Shown here piece after piece: positions 18,708 through 31,051 of a stretch of DNA of 64,000 bases. Source of the stretch: Cephaloticoccus sp. (GTDB taxonomy: Bacteria > Verrucomicrobiota > Verrucomicrobiia > Opitutales > Opitutaceae); the NCBI GenBank assembly GCA_030833445.1, contig JAURHD010000001.1, positions 1-64,000 on the forward strand, read 5' to 3'. How positions within the stretch are numbered: position 1 is the first letter of the stretch; each line of letters opens with the position of its first letter. Under the pieces are notes generated by a model. That model was not told where the DNA came from and made no database searches. It saw only the letters and a list, made by a program, of their open reading frames with translations. Made by a program: the position numbers and the translations under genes.

Positions 18708-18727
18708 ATACGCATACTTGCGTAGAG
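18708..18727 (-). promoter_or_regulatory. 20-bp palindromic motif, copy 1
   Basis: ATACGCATACTTGCGTAGAG contains the perfect inverted repeat TACGCA-N4-TGCGTA. Eighteen of the 20 bases recur at 31032-31051 in the promoter of a PEP-CTERM gene. Here it lies 117-136 bp upstream of the reverse operon start and 20 bp upstream of the -35 box of the forward promoter, so either direction could be controlled. Confidence 0.55.
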
Positions 18728-18747: not shown

Positions 18748-18776
18748 TTGACTAGCAGGTCGCCAAGAGTTTTAAT
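18748..18776 (+). promoter_or_regulatory. Sigma-70-type promoter of the rsgA leader transcript
   Basis: TTGACT (-35, 18748-18753) and TTTAAT (-10, 18771-18776) are separated by exactly 17 bp. Transcription should begin near 18783, about 47 nt before the leader peptide ATG. Confidence 0.7.
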
Positions 18777-18829
18777 CAGGCCAATCGCTTCCGACGAAGC
18801 CAATCGCAACCCTCAACCACGGACCCATC

Positions 18830-18889
18830 ATGACCCAAATTGTCATTACCATTTCTTGTCTGCCCGTGGCGGTTGCCTGTCGCGCGTAA
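18830..18889 (+). CDS. Leader peptide of a putative attenuator (19 codons)
   Basis: ATG at 18830 opens a 19-residue peptide, MTQIVITISCLPVAVACRA, ending TAA at 18887-18889. Codons 4-8 are Ile-Val-Ile-Thr-Ile, a cluster like the control codons of branched-chain or threonine leader peptides. The stop falls in the first of three hairpins. The ribosome site is weak (CGGA about 12 bp upstream). It might be a non-translated small RNA instead. The arrangement with promoter, anti-terminator and terminator is the main support. Confidence 0.5.
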   Translation: MTQIVITISCLPVAVACRA

Positions 18890-18915
18890 TTATACGCGCA
18901 CTTCTACCAATGAGT

Positions 18916-18942
18916 AAGGCCGCCGCTCCAGGCGGCTTTTTT
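18916..18942 (+). terminator. Attenuator terminator before rsgA
   Basis: AAGGCCGCC pairs with GGCGGCTTT around a GCTCCA loop and runs into a six-T tract. The alternative partner of its left arm is GTGGCGGTT at 18866-18874 inside the leader ORF (nine pairs with 18918-18926, including G-U), which would prevent the terminator from forming. Confidence 0.75.
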
Positions 18943-19033
18943 GCACCCACCACAACGATCTGGGTGCACGCGCCCCGTCACGGTTGAGCGCTTGTTTTAC
19001 CACTCATTCTTTCCCTTTTCTCCGTTTCCTACG

Positions 19034-20110
19034 ATGACTCTCTCTTCTCTCGGCTGGGATGATGCGCATGCCGCAAATTTTCAGCCCTATCTCAATTCAG
19101 ATTTTCAACCCGCCCGGGTGGCCCGCGCGCATAAACATGCGTGCGAAGTGCTCATCCCGTCCGGTTTGTTTCCCGCGGCCTGCACCGGCCGCTTGCTGCA
19201 CGAATCCCTGACTCACGCTGATCTACCGGCCGTCGGTGACTGGGTGGTGGCCCGGGCCCGTCCCGATGGATCCCGTTTGGACATTCATGCCGTGCTACCC
19301 CGCCGCACCAAATTCTCCCGACGGGCGGCCGGTGATCGTGACATCGAACAGATTGTCGCCGCCAATGTGGATACGGTGTTTCTCGTATCCTCGCTGGACG
19401 ATAATTACAATCTGCGCCGGATCGAACGCTACCTCATCATCGCATGGGAGAGTGGCGCCCAACCGGTGGTCGTTCTCAATAAGGCGGATCTTCATTCCGA
19501 TCCATCCACGGCACAGGCCGAGGTAACCGCGGTAGCCCCGGGTGCACCGGTCATCGCACTCAGCGCACTGGACGGCTCCGGCATCGAAGCCCTCGCACCT
19601 TGGTTGACCCCCGGGCAGACAGTCGCCCTTTTGGGTTCATCCGGCGTGGGCAAATCCACGTTGGTCAATTGCCTGTTGGGGGCGGACATTCAGGACACTG
19701 GAGGGGTCAGTGAAGCCAACTTCAAAGGGCGGCACACCACCACCCGACGTGAACTCCTGGTCGCACCCTCCGGCGCGCTGGTGATCGATACCCCGGGGAT
19801 GCGCGAGCTGCAATTCTGGCCGGCCGATGCAGCCGCGGTGGACGATACCTTTTCCGACCTCTTGGAAATTACCCGCCAATGCCGGTTTCACGATTGTCGC
19901 CACAACGGTGAACCCGGTTGTGCCGTGGTGGCGGCGCTCGATTCGGGCGAATTGGACGCGGCGCGCTGGGACAGTTATCTGAAACTGCAACGCGAACAGG
20001 CCTTCGCGGCCCGCAAGGCCGACGCCAGTTTGGAACGAGTCGCCAAGCAATCGTGGAAAAAACTCACCGCCCTGGGTCGCGAACGCGCGCGTTGGAAACA
20101 GGGCGAGTGA
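19034..20110 (+). CDS. rsgA: Ribosome small-subunit-dependent GTPase A
   Basis: This is a 358-residue circularly permuted GTPase that helps late 30S maturation. The start is ATG at 19034 (MTLSSLGWDDAHAANFQPYL); the upstream reading is not homologous. An N-terminal OB-fold is followed by G4 'NKADL' before the P-loop 'GSSGVGKSTLVN' and G3 'DTPGMRE', the permuted order typical of RsgA/YjeQ. The C-terminal zinc knuckle is visible as 'CRFHDCRHNGEPGC'. A leader peptide and terminator precede the gene, so its expression may be attenuated, which would be unusual for rsgA. Confidence 0.95.
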   Translation: MTLSSLGWDDAHAANFQPYLNSDFQPARVARAHKHACEVLIPSGLFPAACTGRLLHESLTHADLPAVGDWVVARARPDGSRLDIHAVLPRRTKFSRRAAGDRDIEQIVAANVDTVFLVSSLDDNYNLRRIERYLIIAWESGAQPVVVLNKADLHSDPSTAQAEVTAVAPGAPVIALSALDGSGIEALAPWLTPGQTVALLGSSGVGKSTLVNCLLGADIQDTGGVSEANFKGRHTTTRRELLVAPSGALVIDTPGMRELQFWPADAAAVDDTFSDLLEITRQCRFHDCRHNGEPGCAVVAALDSGELDAARWDSYLKLQREQAFAARKADASLERVAKQSWKKLTALGRERARWKQGE

Positions 20111-20178
20111 ACTGAGGCATCCATTCACCGGACACCACTATGATTGACGATGCACAGCCAACTTGCAAAGCTACGGGT

Positions 20179-21051
20179 ATGTTCACAATCATCGGTGGTG
20201 ACGGTAAAGAGTATGGTCCCGTAACCTTGGAGCAGGTGCGCAACTGGGTGGCCGATGGCCGGGCCAATCATGACACGCAGGCCAAACGCGCAGGGGATGA
20301 GCAGTGGCGCAGACTCGGTGATTTTGCCGAGTTCAACGAAATGGGCACTCTACAACCTCCGCGCGCACCCGATCCGACTCCCGCAGTCGCCTCGATTGTG
20401 CCCAACGGATCGATCCATGTGGATCCCAAGGCCTATGCGGATGATCTGATCGCGCGTGCGGGTAAACTCGATATTGGTAGTTGTCTTGAGCGCAGCTGGG
20501 AATTGTTGAAAGCCCACTTCTGGCCCATCGTGGGCACCACCGCGGGTTCCTTGATCATCATGATGCTGGCGAGCTTGGTGCCCGTCCTTGGCATATTCGT
20601 GGGGTTTCTCTTCAGTGGCATCTTCTACGGCGGACTATTCGCTTACTATCTAAAGACCATCCGGGGCAAACCGACTGAGTTTGGCGATATCTTCAGTGGA
20701 TTCCAAATTGCGTTCGTGCCTTTGCTCCTGGCAACGCTCGTTTCCCAACTACTGATAACTGCCGGCATTCTGCTACTGATCCTGCCGGGCATCTACTTGG
20801 CCGTGGCCTACGCCTTCATCTTTCTGCTGATTGTGGACAAGCGATTGGAATTTTGGGCCGCGATGGAAGTCAGCCGGCGGGTTATCACCGCCCAATGGTG
20901 GCGGATGTTAGGCCTGTTGATTCTGGGCAGTATCATCGGACTGCTCGGGGTTGTGGGCTTGGTGATCGGTATTTTTATCACCATCCCCATCTATTACGGA
21001 GCCATCGCGTATGCATACGAGGATCTGTGTAATCCCCCGCCCAAACTGTAG
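20179..21051 (+). CDS. GYF_2-domain membrane protein
   Basis: This is a 290-residue protein from ATG at 20179 (MFTIIGGDGKEYGPVTLEQV), where the GYF_2 domain begins; an ATG 13 codons earlier (20140) is also possible. Residues 1-60 carry the 'Y.I.g.dgkeYGPvt..qv..W..dGR' pattern. After a proline-rich linker, about five transmembrane helices follow from residue 115 ('PIVGTTAGSLIIMMLASLVP'). This architecture is common in Verrucomicrobiota and Planctomycetota and is uncharacterised; the membrane part resembles DUF975-like integral proteins. It follows rsgA by 68 bp. Confidence 0.7.
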   Translation: MFTIIGGDGKEYGPVTLEQVRNWVADGRANHDTQAKRAGDEQWRRLGDFAEFNEMGTLQPPRAPDPTPAVASIVPNGSIHVDPKAYADDLIARAGKLDIGSCLERSWELLKAHFWPIVGTTAGSLIIMMLASLVPVLGIFVGFLFSGIFYGGLFAYYLKTIRGKPTEFGDIFSGFQIAFVPLLLATLVSQLLITAGILLLILPGIYLAVAYAFIFLLIVDKRLEFWAAMEVSRRVITAQWWRMLGLLILGSIIGLLGVVGLVIGIFITIPIYYGAIAYAYEDLCNPPPKL

Positions 21052-31031: not shown

Positions 31032-31051
31032 ATACGCATACATGCGTAGTG
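31032..31051 (-). promoter_or_regulatory. 20-bp palindromic motif, copy 2
   Basis: ATACGCATACATGCGTAGTG matches the copy at 18708-18727 at 18 of 20 positions and contains TACGCA-N4-TGCGTA. It lies 38-57 bp upstream of the PEP-CTERM start and overlaps where the -10 box of the reverse promoter should be, as an operator would. A second smaller palindrome, CGTAG-TGA-CTACG, overlaps its right end. Confidence 0.55.

Follow-up and report, generated by a model that had tools for sequence, protein, structure and literature searches.

The sequence upstream of rsgA in the window, by which we mean the whole stretch of 64,000 nucleotides that was analyzed, probably encodes a ribosome-mediated transcription attenuator that senses stalls in early elongation and induces a second type of RsgA, a ribosome small-subunit-dependent GTPase; we give this modeled reading a probability of about 0.7. 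A promoter, a 19-codon open reading frame (ORF), a terminator and rsgA follow one another in this order in the sequence, and the promoter TTGACT-17-TTTAAT, the ORF, the terminator with its six T and the identity of the next gene were all found where the original prediction had placed them. The element is conserved in relatives, the coding frame of its ORF is kept, it is linked in cis to rsgA, and mutually exclusive folds are predicted for its RNA. The parts of the locus are as follows.

18748-18776, + strand: promoter, TTGACT (18748-18753), a 17-nt spacer and TTTAAT (18771-18776), from the sequence
18787-18800, + strand: P0, a 5' stem-loop GCTTC-CGAC-GAAGC close to the predicted start of the transcript, from the fold
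18806-18822, + strand: segment a (GCAACCCTCAACCACGG), which forms P1 with segment b, by predicted pairing
18830-18889, + strand: leader ORF MTQIVITISCLPVAVACRA, 19 codons and a TAA stop with the ATG at 18830, from the sequence and frame conservation
18839-18844, + strand: codons 4 and 5, ATT GTC, a rare codon followed by Val, from codon usage and leader comparison
18864-18876, + strand: segment b (CCGTGGCGGTTGC), the partner of segment a, by predicted pairing
18871-18878, + strand: antiterminator segment GGTTGCCT, which pairs with the terminator left arm (18917-18924) in ensemble folding
18882-18899, + strand: P2, a hairpin GCGCGTA-ATTA-TACGCGC around the stop codon, from the fold
18917-18942, + strand: intrinsic terminator with the stem AGGCCGCC (18917-18924) and GGCGGCTT (18931-18938) and six T (18937-18942), from the sequence
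19034-20110, + strand: rsgA of the second type ("LGW", our own label), a ribosome small-subunit-dependent GTPase, from protein profiles

The RsgA of the window opens with LxxLGW, scored 161.3 bits against TIGR00157 (cut-off 100) and was also matched by Pfam RsgA_GTPase. No tRNA or Rfam match was obtained in the window, and the best sub-threshold Rfam scores for the leader were those of isrK (21.1 bits) and Phe_leader (20.8 bits). The leader RNA of 164 nt folds better than its shuffles (z -3.2), one of 200 shuffles being as good. A second hairpin, GCACCCA...TGGGTGC, lies without a T-run at 18943-18967 between the terminator and rsgA, and was not seen by eye in the genus alignment. The gene that follows rsgA (20140-21051) encodes a GYF_2 domain and a weak BPSS1780-like membrane part below the cut-off.

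Conservation of the leader in the Opitutaceae

Of nine genomes searched in the genus, six carry this rsgA and three do not (one of these three is 74% complete). The leader is present in all six genomes with rsgA, each time with an ORF of 19 codons. In these leaders TTGAC stands 33-35 nt before the pre-start block CCCTCAACCACGGA, which has one change each in two of them, and the ORF block CCGTGGC[GT]G, the terminator and the stop-codon hairpin (weak in G002) recur. Among 25 rsgA loci from other genomes, 12 have the leader, 12 lack it (including L065), and one, L050, is truncated at the end of a contig, so that its leader region is not readable although the RsgA tree described below labels it as leaderless. 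L047 (genome G111), a close relative of L048 (G132), has no leader between rsgA and the preceding gene, which we take to be YhbY-like, and may be a case of natural leader loss.

A covariance model built from 18 copies was run on 252 family genomes and gave 30 matches at 80-141 bits. The next match (47.6 bits) precedes an rsgA gene in G061, while the remaining matches among those listed reach at most 43 bits; two weaker matches, the second copy of G061 and that of G021, are also at rsgA. The strong copies stand immediately upstream of rsgA in 29 of 30 cases. The thirtieth, G189, has no rsgA within about 1.5 kb and lacks the T-run of the terminator, and this genome has presumably lost the gene. 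The gene after the G189 leader matches, through its first part, the GYF-domain start of the gene that follows rsgA in the window, with 62% identity over 66 residues, and the two genes have the GYF part alone in common. When another 20 rsgA regions from the family were read by eye, diverged leaders were seen in four and no leader in 16. Where a genome has two rsgA genes, the leader is found on one copy in G147, G163, G018 and G021 and on both in G061. In a sample of 273 genomes of the order (family included), matches outside the family (E up to 1e-6) reached at most 38.7 bits, and the five outside-family loci that were read (L102-L106) have no rsgA within about 1.5 kb; with these weak matches and no rsgA at the loci read, the idea that the full RNA element extends more widely through the order was rejected.

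The promoter is conserved in its upstream part. In 31 of the 34 leaders defined below (3.2 expected), TTGAC was found no further than 110 nt from the leader ATG, in all 31 at -68 to -86 relative to it, and the -10 element is poorly conserved across leaders. A strict promoter scan reported no sigma-70 site at the leader promoter, because the scan requires an A that TTTAAT does not have. Just 5' of the promoter, a perfect inverted repeat TACGCA-N4-TGCGTA (18709-18724) looks operator-like; it occurs at three places in the whole genome, including 31033-31048 in the window, and similar repeats were seen by eye at about the same place 5' of rsgA in several relatives.

The leader set comprises 34 peptides of 16-21 codons, namely the 30 strong covariance-model copies and the four diverged leaders found by eye, and the starts of G061a, G061b, G021a and G070 were picked by hand. 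A GGTTG-type site lies in a single frame, 32, 35, 38 or 41 nt from the ATG, in 29 of the 30 strong copies, with G163 as the lone exception (this count is by listed sites; a tally of last matches gives 25/30, four leaders having TGCTGA at the stop codon). Among the four diverged leaders, the site is in another frame in three and has no match in one. At the sequence level, the leader ORF appears to be under coding constraint. A leader-peptide attenuator in cis with rsgA, as originally predicted, is a model that holds up in relatives, where the element is conserved and the ORF frame is kept across indels.

The start MxxxV is conserved among the 34 leader peptides. Codon 5 encodes Val in 29, Ala in three and Ile in two of them, and codon 4 encodes Ile in 17, Leu in nine, Ser in three, Thr in two, and Pro, Met and Val in one each. 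The third base of codon 4 is T in 31/34 leaders, all 17 Ile codons being ATT and all nine Leu codons CTT. Codons were called rare when their usage was under 15% in the rsgA genes of the leader loci, in which ATT accounts for 14% of Ile and CTT for 6.5% of Leu. By this measure codon 4 is rare in 31 of 33 scorable leaders (31/34 overall), and the counts are 5/15, 1/10, 10/31, 10/23 and 7/22 for codons 2, 3, 5, 6 and 7 and 4/16, 6/28, 3/22 and 3/32 for codons 8, 9, 10 and 11, all of them including related, non-independent leaders. The run Ile-Val-Ile-Thr-Ile, which forms codons 4-8 of the window's leader ORF, was found in none of the 33 other leaders; relatives have, for example, MNEIVHSQTSLPPVG or MTSSVIALPCLSVAA. 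What the relatives conserve is the ORF and its frame, while the cluster of Ile, Leu and Val codons does not extend beyond codons 4-5, and even there with exceptions. A further candidate, a conserved +1-frame ORF that starts at an NTG overlapping codons 4-5, is open to the terminator in the window and was rejected, as it does not persist in one relative checked by hand.

Predicted RNA folds and the position of the ribosome

Several of the hairpins are seen across the leader set. The terminator is present in 33/34 leaders, the exception being G189, which also has no rsgA nearby. The stop-codon hairpin P2 folds better than shuffles in 29/34 leaders (mean z -1.1), and a 38-nt window holding P0 does so in 27/34 (mean z -0.9); compensated versions of P0, GCCTC/GAGGC and GCAGC/GCTGC, were noticed by eye in relatives. 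RNAalifold on a MAFFT alignment recovered the terminator and the stop hairpin and did not recover P0 and P1. A start-codon hairpin, AUGAC/GUCAU, appears in the window's fold and was set aside, as by eye it is not in one register in relatives.

The pairings that would form the switch were compared with a null of synonymous ORFs that keep the peptide, 25 per leader, for which codon weights were assumed except in the case of I, L, V, P, S, T and A. G189, which has no terminator T-run, was left out of the duplex, synonymous-null and ribosome-scan tests, so that 33 of 34 leaders were used. A ribosome at codon 4 was modeled by removing the RNA before position +28. The largest per-base pairing probability of P1, which joins the ORF end to the upstream region, was 0.95 against 0.55 for synonymous ORFs (p 8e-9); sequestration of the terminator left arm with the ribosome at codon 4 was 0.73 against 0.59 (p 2e-6); and the gain in sequestration, stalled minus untranslated RNA, was 0.22 against 0.06 (p 1e-6), all three p values treating related leaders as independent. 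Swapping the upstream region between genera lowered P1 weakly, the own region being better in 21/34 leaders (p 0.025).

With the ribosome moved codon by codon, a scan that gives leader values without a synonymous null, left-arm sequestration was 0.69-0.76 at codons 1-8 (0.73 at codon 8), 0.61 at codon 9, 0.40 at codon 10, 0.30 at codons 11-12, 0.36-0.47 at codons 13-17 and 0.26 at codon 20; with the ribosome at the stop codon it was 0.25. The terminator and antiterminator folds are thus predicted to be mutually exclusive and dependent on ribosome position, and the original idea of alternative folds that follow the ribosome is upheld in the model by the high values at codons 1-8 and the low ones at codons 10-12. 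The left arm is, however, partly paired even without translation (0.51), so that the free state is not clearly OFF, and the renewed rise at codons 13-17 likewise speaks against the reading.

The register of the antiterminator differs from the one first proposed. Nine pairs, three of them G-U, can indeed be drawn between 18866-18874 and 18918-18926, but ensemble folding puts the partner at 18871-18878, in a shifted register, and a best-duplex test of the ORF end with the terminator arm gave values no better than those of synonymous ORFs (mean z -0.21; 15/33 better than the null mean). This duplex result speaks against the antiterminator, and with the shifted partner it led to rejection of the earlier register. 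The predicted partner contains GGTTG in 17/33 leaders, and in several others it is weak or lies elsewhere.

On these folds the following mechanism is proposed. RNA polymerase would start near 18780, as we infer, and make P0, the leader ORF and the terminator. When the leader is untranslated, or when the ribosome has gone from the stop codon, segment b would pair with segment a to form P1, the terminator arm would be free, and transcription would end at 18942. If the ribosome instead were held at codons 1-8, it would keep a and b apart, b would pair with the terminator left arm, and polymerase would read into rsgA. The conserved features of the leader lie in its first five codons, within the predicted ON window for a held ribosome, and the stall point would most likely be the rare codon 4 with the Val codon after it. 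What is sensed would most likely be a general slowing or block of early elongation, that is, translation stress such as that caused by drugs that target the ribosome or by too little charged tRNA; the output would be more second-type RsgA, which may help small subunits.

Second-type rsgA genes in other phyla

GTDB contigs were scanned with an alignment of ten second-type RsgA proteins, which gave 80 loci. The LxxLGW type also occurs in Cyanobacteria, Bacillota, Acidobacteria and others. The cyanobacterial genes are often preceded by a short ORF that opens with MAESV, MTELV, MSELV, MTESV or similar, and a Shine-Dalgarno-like stretch was seen by eye at 16 of the 17 motif-bearing ORFs. The strict regular expression M[TSAN]E[LISF][VIL], composed after the cyanobacterial peptides had been seen, matched 17/27 cyanobacterial and 5/11 Opitutales loci, with 0.0 expected from shuffles, and 0/19 Bacillota and 0/21 other loci; there were no matches on the reverse strand or at locus ends. 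It also matches 14/34 Opitutaceae leaders, and these counts overlap, as some Opitutales loci are genomes of the family set (L127 is G006). A looser expression matched 23/27 cyanobacterial (5.0 expected), 10/11 Opitutales (0.4), 6/19 Bacillota (3.7) and 2/21 other loci (2.3). L135 and L137 were left out of the counts of both the expressions and the Shine-Dalgarno ORFs, and the test of the latter also left out L142, L179, L190 and L193 of the 80 loci.

Among the 17 cyanobacterial ORFs, codon 4 is TCG in 11, TTA in three, TTT in two and CTT in one. Ser at this position is TCG in all 11 cases, a codon that makes up 6.5% of Ser in the rsgA genes concerned; these 11 are not independent, because codons 2-5 are near-identical in many of the ORFs. 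The three TTA, at 20% of Leu, are not rare, and the two TTT were unscored.

The possible outputs of these leaders were also compared. No more than 70 nt separate a terminator from the tblastn-defined start of rsgA in 8/19 Bacillota loci, these 19 loci of the contig scan being the Bacillota evidence, and in 0/27 cyanobacterial loci. ORFs with a Shine-Dalgarno sequence were observed in 16/19 Bacillota (8.6 expected), 19/27 cyanobacterial (9.0), 10/19 mixed other (5.5) and 0/9 Opitutales loci (0.3); since the excess in this test, which also took in folding energy, is similar in the unrelated groups Bacillota, cyanobacteria and the mixed rest, it is weak evidence. The predicted release of the ribosome-binding site of cyanobacterial rsgA is small (0.44 free, about 0.52 with early stalls). 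By eye, the short ORF end upstream of a second-type rsgA of Anoxybacillus (L138, upstream of position 1501) can pair with CCTCTATGATC, which adjoins a sequence with complementarity to the ribosome-binding site of rsgA in the manner of an erm-like translation attenuator. Upstream of a second-type rsgA of Phenylobacterium (L191, upstream of position 1501) there is a short ORF MTVLHAAPLRRARQQG, which resembles MTVLHAEQV of the cyanobacterial locus L172.

A quick RsgA tree with a midpoint root was made from 92 rows, part of the scan loci, and 38 of its 89 branches are open. The proteins of the Opitutaceae leader loci form one group (support 92, not starred), which includes the leaderless L047 and also L050; the cyanobacterial proteins form another (support 99), and those of Bacillota fall on the cyanobacterial side of the midpoint root. 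This grouping means that the opening motif is either old or convergent. We consider tentatively, with somewhat less than even odds, that second-type RsgA proteins of several phyla are controlled by one family of stall sensors, with MxE[LIS]V-like leader peptides and a rare codon 4, whose output would be a terminator in Opitutaceae and probably masking of the ribosome-binding site in cyanobacteria. On this reading the leaders would make up a family of ribosome-stress sensors that act in cis and induce a small-subunit GTPase.

Nature of the signal and comparison with known systems

The likeness to the cyanobacterial peptides suggests, as far as sequences can tell, a sensor of slow or stalled translation and not a simple amino-acid sensor. 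A more specific form of stall sensing is possible, if rather doubtful, namely a drug-inducible leader of the erm/hflXr type, in which a ribosome-targeting antibiotic would arrest the ribosome on the peptide and RsgA would be induced as a protective or recycling factor. Short-ORF leaders stand on second-type rsgA in both Opitutaceae and cyanobacteria, and terminators lie near the gene in 8/19 Bacillota loci. Streptomyces coelicolor has two RsgA paralogs, and the available part of one study names one of them, SCO6149, among genes activated by WblC that respond to tetracycline, unlike their paralogs (PMC7157823); the ribosome GTPase paralog HflXr is described, in the text accessible to us, as induced via a leader of 14 residues (PMC6310831). 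The RLR arrest motif, on the other hand, was seen by eye in 0/34 leader peptides, no report of a drug response of this leader was found in the literature searched, and the early conserved codons would equally fit a general sensor like toiL, as far as the available portion of its description goes (PMC12121999).

The original prediction had linked the leader to Ile/Val supply, as a classical amino-acid attenuator in which rsgA is switched on when the ribosome stalls at codons 4-8 for want of charged Ile or Val (or Leu) tRNA. This we regard as unlikely, although most leaders have Ile/Leu-Val at codons 4-5, within the predicted ON window, and although Ile, Leu and Val make up 39% of the window's own leader and 30% of 633 codons over the 34 leaders, against 21.5% in the window's RsgA, which is a mild enrichment. 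Some leaders have Ser, Thr, Pro or Met at codon 4 or Ala at codon 5, and the five-codon run of the window recurs in no other leader. A general early-elongation sensor fits better than an Ile/Val sensor because Ser, Pro and Thr are tolerated at codon 4; the latter is also disfavored because the opening is shared with the cyanobacterial peptides, which are mostly MAESV, MTESV or MSELV and have Ser at codon 4 in 11/17 cases before the same gene type. The target, rsgA in 29/30 copies, is moreover no biosynthesis or uptake gene of these amino acids.

An independent small RNA of 160 nt, with rsgA transcribed from elsewhere, had been named as the alternative and would agree with the own promoter, own terminator and compact fold and with the persistence of the G189 leader without rsgA within about 1.5 kb, but it is very improbable because of the cis linkage to rsgA at 29/30 elements, the ORF frame is kept, and the missing T-run of G189 fits decay; a terminated leader RNA would still accumulate.

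If the early-elongation attenuator proposed here is correct, cells would measure early translation elongation and respond with a GTPase dedicated to the small subunit. It would also give a handle on the role of second-type RsgA, make testable why some bacteria keep two rsgA genes, and provide a short natural sequence for stall studies.

None of the matches listed in the open-licence literature searched was a paper on a leader peptide ahead of rsgA. The available part of a review that contains both RsgA and "leader peptide" has the latter in a reference title on ErmBL (PMC6912228). The principle of attenuation is already known; the rsgA target, the cross-phylum opening motif and the rare codon 4 were not found in the literature searched, among the matches listed. 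The Rfam family Phe_leader (RF01859) matches end to end over 18829-18945, but with 20.8 bits against a gathering score of 55 and an E value of 0.33 the leader is not a member.

Ribosome-mediated transcription attenuators of the trp/ilv/thr type are known systems. The rsgA leader shares with them a leader ORF, mutually exclusive pairings of ORF segments, an intrinsic terminator and, in the model, ribosome position as the switch. It differs from them in that its target is a ribosome-assembly GTPase, its competing segment lies 5' of the start codon, and its peptides have no conserved run of a single amino acid, the start being well conserved at codons 4-5 alone. Another known system is the hflXr leader rli80 of Listeria, where, in the part of the report available, transcription attenuation with a short ORF likewise controls a paralog of a ribosome-associated GTPase; the rsgA leaders lack the RLR motif and precede a different GTPase (PMC6310831). 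The toiL upstream ORF of E. coli, as presented in the accessible text, is a short ORF too, put forward as a reader of ribosome stalls of many kinds; it acts on translation with Rho-dependent termination, whereas the rsgA leader has an intrinsic terminator (PMC12121999).
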